Positions 3,761-31,390 of a stretch of DNA of 40,469 nucleotides are shown in pieces. The stretch spans positions 1-40,469 of the forward strand of contig NZ_JACHVA010000136.1 in assembly GCF_014230055.1 (NCBI RefSeq), given 5' to 3'. Source of the stretch: Puniceicoccus vermicola. Lineage in GTDB: Bacteria; Verrucomicrobiota; Verrucomicrobiia; Opitutales; Puniceicoccaceae. Under the pieces are notes generated by a model. That model had not been told where the DNA came from. It was given only the letters and a program-made list of their open reading frames with translations, and did not search any database. Position numbers and translations under genes: made by a program. Positions within the stretch are counted from its first letter, which is position 1. Each line of letters starts with the position of its first letter.

Positions 3761-3985
3761 CGGAGAGGAATGGTGATCACCATTTCTACGGGTTGTTCCA
3801 GACAGTAAGGGAGGTGCTAAAGCAGCCTCCTCACTTTAGATCGGCGATTTGACTGCGTCTTTTTCTCGTTTCTTGTTGGAGAGGAATGGCGATCGCCATT
3901 CCTGCGCGTCGTCTCGGGCGGGAGGGGAGGCGCTGAAGCCTCCTCCCCACTCTGGAAGACGCCGCGGTTTCGTATCTTGGGCCGA
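3761..3985. repeat. Two composite A+B hairpin modules between iron-transporter genes
   Basis: The gap between binding-protein and permease genes holds two copies of a module: an A hairpin followed by a B hairpin. Copy 1: AATGGTGATCACCATT (3769-3784), then GGAGGTGCTAAAGCAGCCTC (from 3810). Copy 2: AATGGCGATCGCCATT (3885-3900), then a B hairpin at 3921-3949 (GGCGCTGAAGCC core). The two A stems are perfect palindromes that differ by a compensatory change (GTGATCAC versus GCGATCGC). On transcripts they could stabilise the upstream binding-protein mRNA, as REP elements do (inference). Confidence 0.8.
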
Positions 3986-9059: not shown

Positions 9060-9127
9060 GTCGAAATCGCTATCGCGCTTCCGCTCCACATCTCTAACTT
9101 GAGGAGAGGAACGGCGAGAGCCGTTTC
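9060..9127 (+). repeat. Solo copy of the 109-bp hairpin repeat
   Basis: Between convergent genes lies one partial copy of the unit arrayed at 14.3 and 20.6 kb: the CGAAATCGCTATCGCGCTTC segment (from 9062), then the A hairpin AACGGCGAGAGCCGTT (9110-9125). It is in the same orientation as every other copy. Confidence 0.8.
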
Positions 9128-9191
9128 TAAGCAGAGTCAGCGATCTGTTTGTTGAAGCAGCATGGCACGATTGCCGGAATGGAATCCGAGC

Positions 9192-12903: not shown

Positions 12904-14007
12904 TCAGCTATCCAGTTTTTCCTGAACGCTCGCGAGTTTCTCGGAGACGAGAAGGCAATCGGCGACCGCAGCATCGATGGCTTCCGATTCTCCGAGATTG
13001 TTCCGGTAGGGGGCCGGGATGGCGCTGACGCTCTTCCGGGCGGTGGCGATCGCCGCTTTTACTCCGGCGTCCAAACCAGGGTCTTGGGCTGCGACTAAAT
13101 CCGAGAGAGAGTCGCCACCGGTCGTTCCTTCGTAGGCATTTTGGATGCTGATCAGGTTGTTGGTGAAGTCGTCGAGAGAATTCCAGCTATACCAGGATTC
13201 ACATTCCTGTGGGTTTTGCGACTCGGCCGGATCTCCGATTTTGGCACCGGCCAATTCGTCTGCGATGTCGATGCAGCCCTGCAAGATTTCCTGGATCGCT
13301 TCGGTCTGGGAGTCGTAGCGGCTTCCGGCTTTCCCCGCGTTGACGAATTCCTGGCCGTAGGAACCACTGGTCTCGATTTCCGCCTCCTCGAGGACTTCCT
13401 TTTTATCCTCCGCAAGATTGTCCATTCCAGTCCACCAAGCTTCTAACGTGATGCAATCCTCGGTCATTACCTGAGTCGCGGCGACCAGATATTGCAGCTC
13501 GGCTTTGGTGAAGTCTGCTGCCGCGCGGGGTTGTCCGTTGCGGAAAAGCAGATACTCGACCGCGTGAAAACCGCGGAGGGCGGCGCCGAGGTAGTCTCGA
13601 ACATATCCTGCGTCCACTTCGAGCTGACCGTTCTCAATGGTGGCGAGAACGTGGTCGAGCTGGGCCTGGTCGAGGGGCCAAGAGTCGAGCTGGGGATCCA
13701 GATCATTGAAAGACGCGGGCCCGAAGAGAAAGGCTTCGCTTTGTTCCCAGTTGGCGCGGGTAGCACGCCAAGCATCAGCAGCTGCTTCTACCCGTGCATC
13801 GGTCGGCTTCGCAGCGAGTTTATTCACCGCCTCATTGAGCTTGAGAGATTCGGTCGCCATGTTGGCGTAGGTCTGGATGACCGTTCCCTCGGTGTAGTGG
13901 GTCAGAACCCCGTCTACAGAATTGGAGGAGAGGCTCTCCGCTTGAGCAGTTGCAATCGCCCCAGACGTCGCAGTGAGGAAGGAGAGGAGGATTCTCTGAT
14001 ATTTCAT
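12904..14007 (-). CDS. Imelysin-family iron-uptake protein (IrpA/EfeO-like)
   Basis: Periplasmic protein of 367 residues proposed to bind iron or haem during uptake. A signal peptide (ILLSFLTATSGAIATAQA) is followed by the imelysin domain with ANWEQSEAFLFGPA, the DSWPLD motif and the hallmark GxHxxE site as GFHAVEYLLF. A low-complexity acidic stretch (LAEDKKEVLEEAEIETSGS) lies in the middle. It is the first gene of a minus-strand set with the multi-haem cytochrome, a pairing known from other bacteria. A good Fur-box match lies ~150 bp upstream, fitting induction under iron limitation. Confidence 0.9.
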   Translation of the reverse strand: MKYQRILLSFLTATSGAIATAQAESLSSNSVDGVLTHYTEGTVIQTYANMATESLKLNEAVNKLAAKPTDARVEAAADAWRATRANWEQSEAFLFGPASFNDLDPQLDSWPLDQAQLDHVLATIENGQLEVDAGYVRDYLGAALRGFHAVEYLLFRNGQPRAAADFTKAELQYLVAATQVMTEDCITLEAWWTGMDNLAEDKKEVLEEAEIETSGSYGQEFVNAGKAGSRYDSQTEAIQEILQGCIDIADELAGAKIGDPAESQNPQECESWYSWNSLDDFTNNLISIQNAYEGTTGGDSLSDLVAAQDPGLDAGVKAAIATARKSVSAIPAPYRNNLGESEAIDAAVADCLLVSEKLASVQEKLDS

Positions 14008-14166: not shown

Positions 14167-14289
14167 TGATGAAGTTAGTCAAATTCTCTTATCTTTTGAT
14201 TTGTTTGTATAAGTAGAAATTATTGACTTAATAACAGAAACGATGTCTGCCCCGCGGCACTCGGCTGTTGGTTCACAGCTCGCTTGGTA

Positions 14290-15296
14290 GAGGAACGGCG
14301 AGAGCCGTTTCTACGGATTAGGCGGTTTGGTCGGAGCGTTCTCGGCGACCGTCGAAATCGCTATCGCGCTTCCGCTCCACCTTTGATTGCGCCTTGTAGA
14401 GGAATGGCGATAGCCATTTCTATGATTTTGCGGTTTGGCCAGAGCATTTTCGGTGACCATTCGAAATCGCTATCGCGCTTCCGCTCCACCTGTGATTGTG
14501 CCTTGTAGAGGAATGGCGAGAGCCATTTCTATGATTTTGCGGTTTGGTCGGAGCATTCTCGGGTCCATTCGAAATCGCTGTCGCGCTTCCGCTCCACCTT
14601 TGATTACGCCTTGGAGAGGAATGGCGATAGCCTTTTCTATGGTTTTGCGGTTTGGCTAGAGCGTACTCGGTGATCATTCGAAATCGCTGTCGCGCTTCCG
14701 CTCCACCTTTAATTGCGTCTTGTAGAGGAATGGCGATAGCCATTTCTATGATTTTACGGTTTGGACAGAGCGTACTCGGTGATCATTCGAAATCGCTATC
14801 GCGCTTCCGCTCCACCTTTAATTGCGTCTCGTAGAGGAATGGCGAGAGCCATTTCTATGATTTTGCGGTTTGGTCAGAGTGTTCTCGGTGACCATTCGAA
14901 ATCGCTATCGCGCTTCCGCTCCACCTGTGATTGTGCCTTGTAGAGGAATGGCGAGAGCCATTTCTATGATTTTGCGGTTTGGTCAGAGTGTTCTCGGTGA
15001 CCATTCGAAATCGCTATCGCGCTTCCGCTCCACCTTTGATTACGTCTTGTAGAGGAATGGCGATAGCCATTTCTATGATTTTGCGGTTTGGTCAGAGTGT
15101 TCTCGGTGACCATTCGAAATCGCTATCGCGCTTCCGCTACACCTTTGATTGCACCTTGTAGAGGAATGGCGATAGCCATTTCTATGATTTTGCGGTTTGG
15201 ACAGAGCGTACTCGGTGATCATTCGAAATCGCTGTCGCGCTTCCGCTCCACCTTTAATTGCGTCTCGTAGAGGAATGGCGAGAGCCATTTCTACGG
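14290..15296 (+). repeat. Tandem array of 109-bp hairpin repeats (left of moco cluster)
   Basis: Ten A hairpins with starts at 14290, 14399, 14508, 14616, 14725, 14834, 14943, 15052, 15161 and 15270, a period of 108-109 bp. Each unit has stem AATGGCGATAGCCATT (or AACGGCGAGAGCCGTT), a TTTCTATGATTTTGCGGTTT linker, then a CGAAATCGCTATCGCGCTTC block. GCGATAGC in the hairpin is the exact reverse complement of GCTATCGC in the linker, so alternative pairing is possible. The last unit runs into a B hairpin (15314-15334). The same unit forms the array at 20.6-21.5 kb. No gene is seen here. Confidence 0.95.
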
Positions 15297-15431: not shown

Positions 15432-16463
15432 TCAGCCGCCGAGACGCCACATTTCTTCGTGCACCTTCGGGGAGTTGGCTTGGCCGCGAATCTCGGAGTA
15501 GCGGTCATTGCGATGCCGCCAAATCGATTTCAGTTTCTCGGGAAAGTTTTCGTCGCTTTTGAGAAAGGGTTTAAGGGGGATGCCGGTTGAAGAATAGAGG
15601 CAGGTAAAGAGCTCGCCTTCGGCTGAGACACGGGCGCGGGTGCAGTCGCCACAGAAGGGCGCACTGATGGACTCGATGAATCCCACGGTTCCTCGTCCGT
15701 CGGTGTATTCGTATTCGCGAGCAACCGCGCCAAAGGGAATCGGGAGGGGTTTGAGTGGGGACAATCCGGTGAGTTGATCGCGTAGTTCTGCTCCTGTGAC
15801 GACTTCTTTCCGGTCCCAGTGATTTTGGGTGCCGACATCCATGAACTCGATGAAGCGTAGGGGAAATCCTCTGTCCCGTGCCATTCGGGCGAGGGGGAGG
15901 ACCTCGGATTCGTTCCATACGCGTTGGACGACGGTGTTGAGTTTGACGCCCAATCCCTCGCTGCGAGCAGCCTCGGCGGCTTCGAGGACGTGTTCGGGAT
16001 GGACTCGGCGCCCAGCCATGCGCTCGGCAACGGTAGGATCCAGAGCGTCGAGGCTAATGTTTACCCGGTTCAGGCCCGCCTTTTTGAGGTCTGGAGCCAT
16101 GGAGGCGAGGCGCATGCCGTTGGTCGTGAGAGCGAGATCGAGGGAAGGGTCGAGATCCCGGAGTCTGGCAATCAAGTCGGGGAGGTTGGGGCGAAGGAGA
16201 GGCTCCCCTCCGGTCAGTCGGATCTTCTGCACTCCGAGGGAGAGAAAGGCTGAGGCGATTTCGGTCAGTTCGTCGAAGCTCAACAATTCGGAGAGGTTGC
16301 GGAATCGAAAGTCCTCGCCAAAAACTTCAGCGGGAAGGCAATAGCGGCAGCGCAGATTGCAGCGATCAATGACTGAGAGGCGGAGGTCCCGGAGAAGGCG
16401 GCCCCGCTGGTCGGCGACACTGGCGATTGGCGGTGTAGATTCCTGTGGAAGAGGGGCGCTCAT
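15432..16463 (-). CDS. moaA: GTP 3',8-cyclase MoaA
   Basis: Radical-SAM enzyme of molybdenum-cofactor synthesis; with MoaC it turns GTP into cyclic pyranopterin monophosphate. The 343-residue product has the N-terminal 4Fe-4S site CNLRCRYC, the SAM-binding TGGEPLLRP, and the C-terminal second cluster APFCGDCTRARVSAEGELFTC. It ends in Gly-Gly (WRLGG), the dipeptide needed for activity in known MoaA proteins. The start at 16463 overlaps the moaE stop as ATGA. It is the last gene of the cluster. The family call is certain. Confidence 0.97.
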   Translation of the reverse strand: MSAPLPQESTPPIASVADQRGRLLRDLRLSVIDRCNLRCRYCLPAEVFGEDFRFRNLSELLSFDELTEIASAFLSLGVQKIRLTGGEPLLRPNLPDLIARLRDLDPSLDLALTTNGMRLASMAPDLKKAGLNRVNISLDALDPTVAERMAGRRVHPEHVLEAAEAARSEGLGVKLNTVVQRVWNESEVLPLARMARDRGFPLRFIEFMDVGTQNHWDRKEVVTGAELRDQLTGLSPLKPLPIPFGAVAREYEYTDGRGTVGFIESISAPFCGDCTRARVSAEGELFTCLYSSTGIPLKPFLKSDENFPEKLKSIWRHRNDRYSEIRGQANSPKVHEEMWRLGG

Positions 16464-16921
16464 GCGCCTTCCGTGGTCTTTGAGGAGTGGGAGTGGGCGC
16501 AGTGGCAGGCGGTCGGGTCGACCCATTCGTCGCTGCCGTCGGTGTAAAACTCGTGCTTCCAGATCGGAACGTGAGCCTTAATCTCGTCGACCGCGTGGCG
16601 GCAGGCTTCAAAGGCCTTGTCCCGGTGAGGCGCGCAGGCTCCGACCCAGATCGCGAGGTCGCCCGGGACGAGAGAGCCGATCCGGTGTTCTGCCCGGATT
16701 CCGGTGAGTGAATGTTGATCGAGAATCTCGTGGAGAATCTTCTCTCCGACCTTTAGCGCGAGGGCTTGGTAGGCCTCGTAGTCCAACCGGGTGACGCCGC
16801 GACCGAGGTGATGGTTGCGGACCCATCCTTCGAAGACGCAAAAGCCTCCTGCCTCTTGATTGAGCATGGGGCTGCGGAGGAGGTCGGGGCGAATCGGTTT
16901 CTCGGTCAGTGAAAAGAGCAT
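16460..16921 (-). CDS. moaE: Molybdopterin synthase catalytic subunit MoaE
   Basis: Large subunit of molybdopterin synthase; with thiocarboxylated MoaD it inserts two sulfurs into cyclic pyranopterin monophosphate. The 153 residues include FEGWVRNHHLGRGVTRLDYEA, HRIGSLVPGDLAIWVGACAPHRDKAFEACRH and the active-site lysine region DEIKAHVPIWKHEFY (each quoted in part; full span about residues 28-125). A His/Cys-rich end (TACHCAHSHS) is unusual and could bind metal. The start at 16921 is 1 nt after the moaD stop; its own stop overlaps the moaA start by 4 nt. Confidence 0.96.
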   Translation of the reverse strand: MLFSLTEKPIRPDLLRSPMLNQEAGGFCVFEGWVRNHHLGRGVTRLDYEAYQALALKVGEKILHEILDQHSLTGIRAEHRIGSLVPGDLAIWVGACAPHRDKAFEACRHAVDEIKAHVPIWKHEFYTDGSDEWVDPTACHCAHSHSSKTTEGA

Positions 16922-20370: not shown

Positions 20371-20563
20371 CGGAGAGTTGGTGAGAAAAAGGCGGGCGCG
20401 AAGAAGTGTCTCTTCCGCGCCCACCTGAGCATCGAACAACGAATCGAAGGGATATGCAAATCAGAGTGGATTTTCGAGAGAACTCAAAAACGATCCACCT
20501 CCGGTGCGCCTACACCCGACTATGGTGGCAGCCATTTCGGCGGATTCCTTCCCTAGCCTCGGA
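20371..20563 (-). promoter_or_regulatory. 5' leader of the moco operon with hairpins
   Basis: Non-coding leader upstream of the MOSC gene. A strong stem pairs GGGCGCG (20394-20400) with CGCGCCC (20416-20422), extended by an inner AAGA/TCTT. A second weaker pairing is GTGGAT with ATCCAC (about 20467-20499). I could not match it to the known Moco riboswitch. It may be a simple leader. Confidence 0.35.
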
Positions 20564-21462
20564 GAGGAATGGCGATAGCCATTTCTACGGTAAGGCGGTT
20601 TTGCCGGAGCATTCTCGGCGACCACTCGAAATCGCTATCGCGCTTCCGCTCCACCTTTGATTGCGTCTTGGAGAGGAATGGCGATAGCCATTTCTATGAT
20701 TTTTCGATTTGGTCGCAGCATTCTCGGCGACCATTCGAAATCGCGATCGCGCTTCCGCTACACCTTTGATTGCGCCTTGTAGAGGAATGGCGATAGCCAT
20801 TTCTACGGTAAGGCGGTTTGGCCGGAGCATTCTCGGTGACCATTCGAAATCGCTATCGCGCTTCCGCTCCACCTTTGATTACGTCTTGTAGAGGAATGGC
20901 GATAGCCATTTCTACGGTAAGGCGGTTTGGCCGGAGCATTCTCGGTGACCATTCGAAATCGCTATCGCGCTTCCGCTACACCTTTGATTGCGCCTTGTAG
21001 AGGAATGGCGATAGCCATTTCTACGGTAAGGCGGTTTGGCCGGAGCATTCTCGGTGACCATTCGAAATCGCTGTCGCGCTTCCGCTCCACTTTTGATTAC
21101 GCCTTGGAGAGGAATGGCGATAGCCATTTCTACGGTAAGGCGGTTTGGCCGGAGCATTCTCGGTGACCATTCGAAATCGCTATCGCGCTTCCGCTCCACT
21201 TTTGATTACGCCTTGGAGAGGAATGGCGATAGCCATTTCTACGGATTAGGCGGTTTGGTCGGAGCATTCTCGGCGACCATTCGAAATCGCTATCGCGCTT
21301 CCGTTCCACCTTTGATTGCGCCTTGGAGAGGAATGGCGATAGCCATTTCTATGATTAGGCGGTTTGGTCAGAGCATTCTCGGGGCCATTCGAAATCGCTG
21401 TCGCGCTTCCGCTCCACCTTTGATTGCGCCTTGGAGAGGAACGGCGAGAGCCGTTTCTACCG
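20564..21462 (+). repeat. Tandem array of 109-bp hairpin repeats (right of moco cluster)
   Basis: Nine A hairpins with starts at 20564, 20673, 20782, 20891, 21000, 21109, 21218, about 21328 and 21436. The unit is the same as at 14.3-15.3 kb, in the same orientation. Here most units carry a TACGGTAAGGCGGTTTGGCC linker instead of the TATGATTTTGCGG linker of the left array, so each array has been homogenised separately. The last hairpin changes to AACGGCGAGAGCCGTT, as does the first unit of the left array. Confidence 0.95.
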
Positions 21463-24193: not shown

Positions 24194-24276
24194 GCCGGGA
24201 AGAAAGTACTTCTTACTTCCTTTACGGTTCGCTTCTTCCCGGAGAGGCGGAGAGGAACGGCGAGGGCCGTTTCTAC
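24194..24276 (+). repeat. 83-bp repeat flanking the toxin-antitoxin pair, left copy
   Basis: Starts GCCGGGAAGAAAGTACTTCT and ends with A hairpin AACGGCGAGGGCCGTT (24256-24271). About 80 percent identical by eye to 25452-25535 on the other side of the toxin-antitoxin genes. Confidence 0.75.
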
Positions 24277-25340: not shown

Positions 25341-25685
25341 ATTTGCTTGAAAGTCAATGATTGGGGGCGTGGGGGCGGAGGGCGTGGGCGCTTTGCCGGG
25401 AAAAATGGGAGCTTCCAGCTCCCGCGTGCTGCCTCACCGGAGTGCTGCCTCGCTGGGAAGAAAGTATTTCATCCTTCCTCTACGGGGTGCGCTTCCTTCC
25501 GGAGATGGGGAGAGGAGCGGCGAGAGCCGTTTCTGGGATCTTCCGAAAAGCTCGGTCCCGTCTGGGCGAATTTCTTCTTCGCCGGGAAAAAATCAAAGTA
25601 GTGGGAGCTTCCGTGCTTCGCTTTACAGTTTCGGAGGACAGGTCCAGCAATCCGGGAATTGCGGATTGGAAGGGTGGGGATCCAA
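25341..25685. repeat. Gene-free region with several hairpin repeats
   Basis: Holds GGGAGCTTCCAGCTCCC (25406-25422), the right copy of the 83-bp repeat (25452-25535, A hairpin AGCGGCGAGAGCCGTT), and a GTGGGAGCTTCCGTGCTTCG element (from 25601) that recurs near 37047. No gene is seen. Confidence 0.7.
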
Positions 25686-27437: not shown

Positions 27438-27467
27438 GACCGGGGAAGGGGCACGCGGTTCTCTTGT

Positions 27468-28890
27468 GGGCACGGCTTCAGCCTTGCCCAGGTAGCGGCA
27501 TGGCTCGCTCCTATTTCTTGAGAAGAGCTTGTCGTCGAACGGGTTTCTTTTCGAGGTGTGTGTGTGCATGCTGATGGAGGGCGCTGAAGCAACCCTCCTC
27601 CTGTGGGGCACGGCTTCAGCCTTGCCCAGGTCGAGGCATGGCTCGCTCCTATTTCTTGGGAAGAGCTTGTCGTCGAACGGGTTTCTTTTCGAGGTGTGTG
27701 TGTGCATGCTGATGGAGGGCGCTGAAGCAACCCTCCTCCTGTGGGGCACGGCTTCAGCCTTGCCCAGGTCGAGGCATGGCTCGCTCCTATTTCTTGGGAA
27801 GAGCTTGTCGTCGAACGGTTTTCTTTTCGAGGTGTGTGTGTGCATGCTGATGGAGGGCGCTGAAGCAACCCTCCTACAGTGGGGCATGGCCTTCAGCCTT
27901 GCCCGGGTAGCGGCATGGCTCGTTCCTGTTTCTTGGGAAGAGCTTGTCGTCGAACAGTTTTCTTTTCGGGGCGTGTGGGTGCATGCTGATGGAGGGCGCT
28001 GAAGCAACCCTCCTCCTGTGGGGCACGGCTTCAGCCTTGCCCAGGTCGAGGCATGGCTCGCTCCTATTTCTTGGGAAGAGCTTGTCGTCGAACGGGTTTC
28101 TTTTCGAGGTGTGTGGGTGCATGCTGATGGAGGGTGCTGAAGCAACCCTCCTACAGTGGGGCACGGCTTCAGCCTTGCCCAGGTCGAGGCATGGCTCGCT
28201 CCTGTTTCTTGGGAAGAGCTTGTCGTCGAACGGTTTTCTTTTCGGGGCGTGCGGGTGCATGCTGATGGAGGGCGCTGAAGCAACCCTCCTCCAGTGGGGC
28301 ATGGCCTTCAGCCTTGCCCGGGTAGCGGCATGGCTCGCTCCTGTTTCTTGGGAAGAGCTTGTCGTCGAACGGTTTTCTTTTCGGGGCGTGCGGGTGCATG
28401 CTGATGGAGGGCGCTGAAGCAGTCGAACGGTTTTCTTTTCGGGGCGTGCGGGTGCATGCTGATGGAGGGCGCTGAAGCAACCCTCCTCCAGTGGGGCATG
28501 GCCTTCAGCCTTGCCCAGGTCGAGGCATGGCTCGTTCCTGTTTCTTGGGAAGAGCTTGTCGTCGAACGGTTTTCTTTTCGGGGCGTGCGGGTGCATGCTG
28601 ATGGAGGGCGCTGAAGCAACCCTCCTACAGTGGGGCATGGCCTTCAGCCTTGCCCGGGTAGCGGCATGGCTCGTTCCTGTTTCTTGGGAAGAGCTTGTCG
28701 TCGAACAGTTTTCTTTTCGGGGCGTGTGGGTGCATGCTGATGGAGGGCGCTGAAGCAACCCTCCTCCTTGGGGGAATGGCTTTCAGTCTTGCCCAGTGAG
28801 TTGGCTCGCAGACTCCCTCTCCTTGCGGCCATCTGGCAAAATGGTTCTTCTTGCGATGAGCTGTGGGTGCTGAAGCCGCCCACACAGGGG
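27468..28890 (+). repeat. Tandem array of ~138-bp hairpin repeats
   Basis: Landmark GTCGTCGAAC at 27531, 27669, 27807, 27946, 28084, 28222, 28361, 28558 and 28697, plus a truncated ~61-bp unit near 28421; period 138-139 bp. Each unit has B hairpin GGAGGGCGCTGAAGCAACCC and C hairpin GGGCACGGCTTCAGCCTTGC, the same two hairpins as the array at 1-630 but with a different linker (AAGAGCTTGTCGTCGAACGG). A degenerate last B hairpin lies at 28862-28884. Because 138 is divisible by 3, long repetitive open frames appear on both strands; these are not genes. Confidence 0.95.
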
Positions 28891-29226: not shown

Positions 29227-29290
29227 ATAGGTTTTTTTGGAAAAGTTTTGGGGGGACGTTGAGAGGTTTTGACGTTGGGACGTTCAGGCG

Positions 29291-29362
29291 TTCAGAGGTT
29301 CAGAGGTTCAGAGGTTCAGAGGTTGAGAGGTTGAGAGGTTGAGAGGTTCAGAGGTTGAGAGG
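29291..29362. repeat. 8-bp tandem repeat upstream of the FtsK-type gene
   Basis: Nine perfect or near-perfect copies of TTCAGAGG/TTGAGAGG, ending 99 bp before the ATG at 29462. The unit is not a multiple of three and lies in the promoter region, so length change could alter promoter spacing. Confidence 0.85.
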
Positions 29363-29461
29363 TTTTTAGGTTTTTCGGCTGGGGTGGGTTCTTTTCTCCT
29401 AAAACATTCTTGCGAAGAATTGGGGAATCCGGCTCCTTGGAACGTTTGGTATTCTCGCCTA

Positions 29462-31390
29462 ATGTTTCGTTCTATCGCCGGATCTCTCAGTCAGTCGAAG
29501 CTCGCTGATCGCTTAAAGCAGTGGGCTTCTACCTTTGCGCGCGAAGAGGACGACTTGGAGCCCCTTCGCTACATAACGGATGAGGAGGAGGAGAGTGCGG
29601 AGCCCCCCGTGGCGGAGCGGCAAGCGGATGCGGTCGAAGAGGCGGTGCCGGAGCCGGTGGACCCCGCCAAAGAACGGGAGGCTTTCTGGTCGACCGAATG
29701 GGAGCGCATTGAGGAGTGGAACGCCGAGCTGGCGGAGCGGATTGCCCGCCGGGAGCAGCGGAAGACCGATCACGCGAAATGGATGAGCGAATGCCTGGAG
29801 CGCGTGGCCGAGGCCTTGCAAGCGCCAGCGGTCCCGGATCCGGAAACCGCAGAAGAGGCGGAGCAGACCGAGGCAGCCCCTGAGGTGGATCCGGCGGAAG
29901 TGGTGGCAACCTCGACTCCCGAACCTCTCCCCGAGCCGGTGGAAGGGTATCACTCCGGCGATGTGGATGGTTACTCCATCCCTTCGGTGGAGTTTCTCCG
30001 GGCGGCGAACGATTATTCCGATGCGGGGATGTCCGACGAGGAGCTGGAGGAGCAGCAGGCGAGCTTGCAGCAGACTTTTGATAACTTCTCGATCGACGCC
30101 ATCGTCTGCGATGCCACGGTGGGACCACGGGTGACGCAATACCGGGTGAAGCCGGGTTACGGCGTCCGGGTTGAAACGATTTCGAATTTGGAGAACAACA
30201 TCGCCCTGGCGATGAAGGCCAATGCCGTCCGTATTCAGGCACCGATTCCCGGGGAGCCTTACGTGGGGGTAGAAGCGCCGAATCCGCGGAGCCGCACGAT
30301 TACGCTGAAGGAGGCGCTGCTTTCCGAAACCTGGAAAAGCAGCACGGCCAATCTACCGATTGCCCTCGGGATGGACATTACGGGGCAGTTTCAACTTTGC
30401 GATCTGGCGAAAGCTCCGCACTTGCTCATCGCCGGTGCGACCGGAAGTGGTAAATCGGTCTGTATCAATAACATCATTCTCTCGCTGCTCTATCGCTTTG
30501 AGCCGGGAGAGTTGGAGCTGGTGCTGGTGGACCCGAAGCGGGTGGAGATGGCCATGTACAAAGATCTCCCGCACCTGATTCATCCAGTGGTCGGCGATCC
30601 CAAACAGGCCTGCCAGGCCTTGAAGTGGTTGGTGCGGGAAATGGAATCCCGCTACGAAACCCTCGCCGAGCGGCGGGTGCGCAATCTTGCCGGCTACAAC
30701 GAGAAGGCCCGCAAGGAAGGATTTGCTCCTTTGCCCTACATCGTCCTCATCATCGACGAGATGGCCGATCTGATGATGACCGCCAAGGAGGACGTGGAGA
30801 CCCCGCTGGCCCGATTGGCCCAGATGTCGCGCGCGGTTGGGATCCATACGATTCTTGCGACCCAGCGGCCGAGTGTGAATGTCATCACCGGGGTCATTAA
30901 AGCCAACTTTCCGACGCGCGTGGCTTTCCAGGTATCCTCGCAAATCGACAGCCGGACGATCCTTGATGGCAAGGGTGCAGAAGCGCTGCAGGGAAAAGGG
31001 GATATGCTCTACACTCCTCCGGGACAGTCCCGCTTGCGGCGTTTGCAAAGCCCCTTCGTCGACGACGACGAGATCAACAAGATCACCGATTTCATTCGCG
31101 AACAGGCTCCTCCGCGCTACCGGGTGGAACTCATCGCCGAGGATGCCCCCGGAGGTGGAGAGTTTGCCGCCGAAGGCGAAGAGGGAGGCGATCCTCTCTT
31201 GATGGACGCGTTGGCGATCGTTGCCACAACCGGGAAGGCGAGCACCAGCTTCCTCCAGCGGAAGTTGAAAATCGGCTACAATCGGGCAGCGACCCTGGTC
31301 GAGGAGCTCGAAGTGCGCGGGCACATCGGTCCGCAGGTCGGGAGTTCGCCCCGCGAAGTCTTTGTCACTCCGAGTGAGCTCCCACGCTGA
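29462..31390 (+). CDS. FtsK/SpoIIIE-type DNA translocase without membrane domain
   Basis: 642-residue hexameric dsDNA-motor homologue. Residues 1-200 are acidic and helical with no membrane segment (canonical FtsK and SpoIIIE have about four). Then come the alpha/beta motor region (FDNFSIDAIVCDATVGPRVT), Walker A GATGSGKSV (325-333), Walker B VLIIDEMADL (428-437), LATQRPSVNVITG, and a C-terminal winged-helix gamma domain (about 575-635) of the type that reads polar DNA sequences. ATG at 29462 follows an upstream open stretch that is repeat DNA. First gene of a four-gene operon; its stop overlaps the next start by 1 nt. It may be the cell's only FtsK or a specialised soluble paralogue. Confidence 0.93.
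   Translation: MFRSIAGSLSQSKLADRLKQWASTFAREEDDLEPLRYITDEEEESAEPPVAERQADAVEEAVPEPVDPAKEREAFWSTEWERIEEWNAELAERIARREQRKTDHAKWMSECLERVAEALQAPAVPDPETAEEAEQTEAAPEVDPAEVVATSTPEPLPEPVEGYHSGDVDGYSIPSVEFLRAANDYSDAGMSDEELEEQQASLQQTFDNFSIDAIVCDATVGPRVTQYRVKPGYGVRVETISNLENNIALAMKANAVRIQAPIPGEPYVGVEAPNPRSRTITLKEALLSETWKSSTANLPIALGMDITGQFQLCDLAKAPHLLIAGATGSGKSVCINNIILSLLYRFEPGELELVLVDPKRVEMAMYKDLPHLIHPVVGDPKQACQALKWLVREMESRYETLAERRVRNLAGYNEKARKEGFAPLPYIVLIIDEMADLMMTAKEDVETPLARLAQMSRAVGIHTILATQRPSVNVITGVIKANFPTRVAFQVSSQIDSRTILDGKGAEALQGKGDMLYTPPGQSRLRRLQSPFVDDDEINKITDFIREQAPPRYRVELIAEDAPGGGEFAAEGEEGGDPLLMDALAIVATTGKASTSFLQRKLKIGYNRAATLVEELEVRGHIGPQVGSSPREVFVTPSELPR

Follow-up and report, generated by a model that had tools for sequence, protein, structure and literature searches.

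A dispersed REP hairpin family in Puniceicoccus vermicola and its probable RAYT partner gene

The hairpin repeated across the window, the 40,469-nucleotide stretch of Puniceicoccus vermicola DNA analysed here, is in all likelihood the REP element of a REPtron, a set of dispersed headed hairpins belonging to one RAYT gene, which on sequence grounds we place at C52:76339-76896. The A-type REPs have very probably been spread by a single-strand transposase encoded elsewhere in the genome. The original prediction, that the fold is acted on by a structure-dependent process, is supported by strong covariation between the two arms and by a RAYT gene that lies between copies of these elements. A hairpin first spotted by eye is thus traced to a probable enzyme, through the REP, its inverted partner and a RAYT gene lying among the copies. 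The REP phenomenon is already in print, as are its main features, among them the complementary stem variants, and the family described here is a well-supported new example. As set out in sections of four papers (PMC3733652, PMC8266576, PMC6006769, PMC3116915), the known kit comprises hairpins headed by GT[AG]G, inverted pairs, tandem reiteration together with flanking DNA, one RAYT per REP type and complementary stem variants.

The element, a repetitive extragenic palindrome (REP), measures about 26 nt in all and consists of a GGAG or GTAG head, a 9-bp stem and a 4-base loop. In the A element, the GTAG or GGAG head is followed by AGGAAyGGC-GAnA-GCCrTTTCT, which forms nine pairs, the third of them G.T. 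A G[GT]AG tetranucleotide stands at the foot of 176 of the 198 A copies collected below (GGAG 147, GTAG 29), and the commonest head, GGAG, differs from the known GT[AG]G. The window contains two tandem arrays with a 109-bp unit, detected by TRF at 14287-15293 (9.2 copies) and 20556-21460 (8.3 copies), in which each unit holds two inverted REPs, an arrangement known as a BIME or REPIN (Table 1). Within the first array the head lies directly 5' of each A-type REP and reads GTAG in nine and GGAG in one. The second partner, the B element, has the form CGGAAGCGC-GAnA-GCGATTTCG and lies on the minus strand in the first array; its third pair is G.T in all 72 copies, a count that the search pattern itself favours by its letters, and its sixth pair is a G/A mismatch in 69 of the 72. 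At other sites B is replaced by the A' form, CGGAATGGC-GAnA-GCCATTTCG. Scanning only the window for a head followed by a hairpin returned 79 candidates, many of which are chance matches.

Table 1. REP elements and 109-bp-unit arrays in the window
Feature	Position	Strand	Details
BIME/REPIN tandem array	14287..15293	+	ten A-type REPs
A-type 22-mer starts, first array	14291, 14400, 14509, 14617, 14726, 14835, 14944, 15053, 15162, 15271	+	
B-type REPs, inverted	14353..15245	-	nine, one per gap between A copies
B-type starts, first array	14353, 14462, 14570, 14679, 14788, 14897, 15006, 15115, 15224	-	
Second 109-bp-unit array	20565..21458	+	nine A-type and eight inverted B-type REPs, alternating
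A-type REP	3766..3787	+	AGGAATGGTGATCACCATTTCT, head GGAG
A-type REP	3882..3903	+	AGGAATGGCGATCGCCATTCCT, head GGAG
Inverted REP pair	9062..9128	B 9062-9083 on -; A 9107-9128 on +	heads inside
A-type REP	24253..24274	+	loop GAGG, head GGAG
A-type REP	25513..25534	+	one G.T replacing A-T, head GGAG

Most of the stems listed previously by eye were recovered as described: AATGGTGATCACCATT occurs at 3769, AATGGCGATCGCCATT at 3885, and AACGGCGAGAGCCGTT at 9110 and in the first array copy at 14294, while AATGGCGATAGCCATT and AATGGCGAGAGCCATT are found in the remaining array copies, except that the copy at 14620 carries a T.T mismatch (AATGGC..GCCTTT). The copy at 24256 is present but reads AACGGCGAGGGCCGTT with the loop GAGG, and a further copy at 25516 (AGCGGC..GCCGTT, with one G.T) was missing from the earlier list. 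The complementary stretch GCTATCGC (or GCTGTCGC, once GCGATCGC), for which an alternative pairing with the hairpin had been proposed, is indeed found in the array units, but it lies within the B elements and is part of a second, opposite REP, so that no switch inside one hairpin is involved.

For a larger sample we searched 1,256,174 bases, window included, corresponding to 24% of the genome; these regions were picked mostly around pattern matches, so the counts give no estimate of density. The search pattern was based on sequence only, treated the two arms independently and allowed up to 3 mismatches. It returned 244 raw matches, which were reduced to 198 A/A' elements at 56 sites once opposite-strand duplicates had been removed, compared with 0 matches at ≤3 mismatches and 7 at 4 for a reversed-pattern control. 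When all 435 column pairs of the 198 aligned copies (30 columns) were ranked, the top three were opposite stem positions, namely 1-22, 6-17 and 8-15, bearing out the claim that a change in one arm is compensated in the other. The G values for pairs 1, 6 and 8 are 183, 168 and 72, and the best other pair reaches 42; the same three lead whether or not G is corrected for column background, and pair 9 ranks seventh once it is. Pair 6 is T-A in 97 copies, C-G in 82, T.G in 9, C.A in 6 and otherwise composed in 4; pair 1 is A-T in 152 and C-G in 39; and pair 8 is G-C in 178, A-T in 13 and A.C in 5. All nine pairs are standard in 167 of the 198 copies, namely at 13 of the 21 single-copy sites and, where sites hold several copies, in 154 of 177.

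Such co-changes could also have been inherited from a few founder hairpins (the TA, CG and outer C-G types) without present selection on the fold. Consistent with common descent, pair 1 separates the A and A' subfamilies by A-T or C-G and may record one old event, columns 1, 6, 17, 22 and 25 are linked across subfamilies (G 30-42), and the variants of pair 8 are confined to few sites. When one random copy was drawn from each of the 56 sites, pair 6 was Watson-Crick in a mean of 47.0 sites (minimum 43) versus 27.3 after shuffling (maximum 38), and pair 1 in 52.1 (minimum 49) versus 36.6 (maximum 47), whereas pair 8 (51.7 versus 47.0, shuffled maximum 53) and pair 9 (51.9 versus 49.6, shuffled maximum 54) were not separable from shuffles. 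Because column shuffles do not model descent, we give most weight to an internal control. Inheritance should link the stem to loop, head and flank columns as well, but within the 152 copies of the A-T subfamily pair 6 has a G of 153, while column 6 or 17 reaches at most 25 with any other column. In addition, TA and CG at pair 6 coexist within 5 multi-copy sites, and the inner stems beside RAYT relatives, described below, differ yet pair fully. Descent from founders as the whole account of the co-changes is, in our judgement, improbable, and we retain a fold on which a structure-dependent process acts.

The two strands of the element are not equivalent. All nine pairs form on the head-bearing strand in the 167 copies mentioned above, and on its complement in 4 of 198. 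The third pair is G.T in 185 of the 198 A copies, of which 170 carry a head on that strand only, none on the other strand only and 15 on neither. A head-first search that left pair 3 free likewise gave G.T in 141 cases, against T.T 2, G-C 2, A-T 2, G.G 1 and A.C 0. As pair 3 is G.T on the head-bearing strand and never A.C, it is probably the head-bearing strand that folds. Single-change forms in the A family show no clear strand preference, since outside pair 3 there is no clear excess of G.T (24 cells) over A.C (18 cells).

This polarity bears on whether the hairpin works as RNA in transcripts of neighbouring genes, as a terminator, an mRNA 3'-end stabilizer or a processing site. The first array sits in the interval between two minus-strand ORFs, an imelysin one (12904-14007) and a MoaA-like one (15432-16526), a position that would suit such a role, and REPs elsewhere in bacteria are thought to act in RNA, with G.T in REP stems taken as a sign of RNA in part of PMC3733652. 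However, A and B stand inverted in one array, and the polarity of pair 3 therefore follows the element and not the transcript: each type carries G.T on its own head strand, and any transcript gives A.C in one of the two. One transcript cannot explain both, whereas single-stranded DNA recognized by a RAYT can. The Rfam 15 scan of the window also gave no match above the gathering score. We regard an RNA role as unlikely and prefer single-stranded DNA, because the G.T wobble goes with each element's own head, whichever transcript strand this lies on; its polarity thus provides a sequence-based argument that the selected form is DNA rather than RNA.

The original prediction had called for a RAYT-type transposase gene, and one was found among copies of the same REP. 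An alignment of five RAYT-like proteins used as a profile gave 36 matches in the genome, including C52:76504-76809 (E 2.1e-6), which belongs to a full gene of 186 aa (C52:76339-76896, hereafter P0001) flanked on both sides by A/A' elements, at C52:76045-76249 and 76932-77015. The encoded protein carries an HUH motif (MPDHAH) and Y135, and both the HUH motif and the tyrosine are invariant across 15 aligned proteins, comprising P0001 and 14 of the 16 strong matches (E <1e-31) that a search of 132 genomes of the order returned outside its own genome. Any match at E ≤0.001 was found in 35 of the 132, its own genome included. In its own genome P0001 has one strong match, itself (E 2.5e-134), the next being 2.9e-5 and 1.2e-4. 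The profile of the 15 matches E. coli TnpA-REP (PDB 4er8) at E 1.4e-9, compared with 0.0074 for P0001 alone, and all 15 match the REP-associated tyrosine transposase model NF047646 at E ≤0.01. P0001 itself scores below the curated cut-off of that model (47.4 versus 80 bits, E 1.7e-12), and so is a homologue but no member by the NCBI threshold, and it also lies below the PF01797 cut-off (13.8 versus 23). Taken with its flanking elements, P0001 is the probable RAYT partner of the A/A'/B REP family.

None of 34 related genomes, two same-genus ones among them, contains the exact A pattern; such a pattern cannot trace the family across species, and conservation was therefore tested through the RAYT gene. 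We examined 95 loci, made up of 80 named loci kept from 364 confirmed and 15 from the order-wide search, its own locus included. Among the 80 named loci listed of the 364 confirmed, 68 are titled Verrucomicrobiota, including Puniceicoccaceae and Opitutus, and the other 12 Planctomycetes, Lentisphaerae, Kiritimatiellaeota, Armatimonadetes or plain 'bacterium'. Repeated headed hairpins occur within 1 kb of the RAYT gene at 39 of the 95 loci, on both sides in 36, compared with 2, 2, 3, 4 and 2 loci when the flanks were shuffled five times. Hairpins are identical in at least two cases, between L154 and L182 and between L163 and L244, where a single genome may have been counted twice. The automatic test found no repeated headed hairpin at 56 of the 95, where some flanks stop at contig ends. 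The usual head beside these relatives is GTAG or GTGG. Under a detection scheme in which every non-Watson-Crick pair counts equally, the irregular pair in the 39 hairpin loci is G.T in 26, A.C in none and another in 10, and 22 also or only have hairpins with none; the G.T is located at pair 3 in 16 of the 39. In the same-genus genomes, RAYT relatives at 50% and 44% identity (L158, L162) have different hairpins in their flanks. Beside some relatives the outer stem CGGA..TTCG is retained and the inner five pairs are changed. Of 42 matches anchored on head and outer stem, 28, drawn from 5 loci including its own, have all five inner pairs Watson-Crick, 5 have four and 9 have three or fewer. These RAYT relatives, with hairpins of the same outline and different sequence, offer RAYT-REP pairs outside Proteobacteria for studying the recognition of folded single-stranded DNA.

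The elements also show regular spacing. In 173 of 210 cases an element is inverted relative to its neighbour. Where stem ends face each other, the site median is 39-46 bp at 23 of 28 sites, 22 bp at one and 76-82 bp at four, and facing heads lie 17-25 bp apart at 14 of 25 sites and 34-43 bp apart at 11. Spacers from one site resemble each other (mean score 0.72-0.73), whereas spacers from different sites score little above shuffled sequence (-0.05 versus -0.15; -0.16 versus -0.23), some neighbouring arrays excepted; unit length, too, is almost constant in one site and different from site to site. These features agree with ordinary local repeat growth by slippage or unequal crossing-over that needs no RAYT after the first insertion, and tandem repeats of a REPIN with its flank are described for Pseudomonas fluorescens in a section of PMC3116915. 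Local growth is a reasonably likely origin of the arrays, but leaves the dispersed copies, the 39-46 bp stem spacing and the RAYT association unexplained, and for the array step it is compatible with a REP family served by a RAYT. Under such a combined scheme, the RAYT would bind the head-bearing strand as folded single-stranded DNA, to judge from sequence polarity, and would cut and join beside the folded strand, copying REP pairs to new sites. Copying may be limited to copies still able to fold, leaving compensated stems behind, and after insertion the REP pair and adjoining DNA may be amplified in tandem on the spot, giving each site its own unit length.

The two 109-bp-unit arrays of the window have spacer sequence in common, though they lie about 5 kb apart, and sharing of spacers is visible by eye also in some site pairs on contigs C52, C101, C126 and C138. 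The sharing between neighbouring arrays hints at regional copying.

Our comparison with known systems, based on portions of the published texts, reveals both shared and distinct features. Like the REPs and REPtrons of E. coli, Stenotrophomonas maltophilia and Pseudomonas fluorescens, the present family combines a tetranucleotide head with a short hairpin, inverted pairs and tandem arrays that include flanking DNA, and, like known REPtrons, it has a RAYT flanked by its own REPs and stem variants that preserve pairing (PMC3733652, PMC8266576, PMC3116915, PMC6006769). Unlike in these REPs, its head is mostly GGAG and unequal types share one unit (A with B or A'); its third pair is G.T, whereas E. 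coli REPs have a bulge there; and P0001 falls under the present Pfam and NCBIfam cut-offs. The IS200/IS605 elements resemble it in having an HUH Y1 transposase and a hairpin with a 5' guide tetranucleotide (PMC8266576, in part), but here one strong transposase copy accompanies many hairpins, and the two do not repeat as one unit. Opitutus terrae (Verrucomicrobia) is described in a portion of PMC3733652 as rich in GTAG repeats, with several REP families and many elements headed GTGG; it probably belongs to the same phylum and likewise is described as having several REP families in its genome. A full-text literature search combining the transposase's full name with 'Verrucomicrobi' returned PMC3733652 alone, whose main text, figures aside, has 0 mentions of GGAG as the main head, and neither this head nor a strand polarity of the wobble was met in the portions of PMC3733652, PMC8266576, PMC6006769 and PMC3116915 that treat REPs. 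A tentative and rather doubtful extension is that, in a RAYT clade of Verrucomicrobiota and relatives, the lower-stem G.T, which is mostly at the third pair and in every case on the strand with the head, may be the mark by which the transposase separates a REP from an inverted REP, replacing the E. coli bulge and forming with the GGAG head a further recognition code, while the 39-46 bp stem spacing, free in sequence, may reflect a complex that grips two hairpins.

The genome contains other RAYT-like genes. The automatic hairpin test was positive at 4 of 11 (C16, C127:8113, C9 and C52) and negative at C92 (two genes), C36, C139, C127:41345 and C141; it also missed the RAYT at C80:19748, which a pattern search showed to have C/D elements on both sides. 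Besides C52, the genes at C16:517, C9:20166 and C127:8113 are each bracketed by repeated headed hairpins of their own, so that at least four RAYT-hairpin pairs are present by the automatic test, and five with C80. Visual inspection does show palindromes near C92:32749 and C139, and the RAYT-like matches at C16:517, C9:20166 and C92:7801 contain an in-frame stop.

A separate family of Y1 transposase-like proteins of about 320 aa is represented in this genome, outside the window, by 34 copies longer than 250 aa (for example L065, L036 and L016), one of them at a contig end. PF01797, tried as a RAYT query, gave 50 genome matches, most of them to this family, and missed the cognate gene. The family was rejected as a REP partner, as a search of up to 800 bases around each of its 34 genes, less where the flank was shorter, found repeated headed hairpins at none. 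Its median pairwise identity is 76%, and in a cluster of 14 the third codon positions average 80% identity over the first 55 codons. In 21 copies inspected by eye, a short palindromic block lies upstream, the spacer is copy-specific and similarity stops at the stop codon. The family resembles the REP-less subclasses 2.1/2.3 as described in part of PMC6006769.

Two more arrays, with units of 125 and 138 bp, occupy 1-604 and 27461-28796 of the window and contain further headed palindromes, C and D, of which lone copies lie at 3810, 3926 and 15314. The D palindrome, GTGG-GGCATGGCTTAAGCCTTGCCC, has 4 plus-strand matches in each array at ≤4 mismatches, and the C palindrome, GTGG-GGAGGTTGCTTCAGCACCTCC, has 6 matches at ≤5 mismatches. 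The window also carries two short tandem repeats, one of 7-8 bases (TCGGTGAG) at 1790-1862 and one of 8 bases (GTTCAGAG) at 29258-29364, the latter overlapping the start of an FtsK-like ORF (29339-31390).
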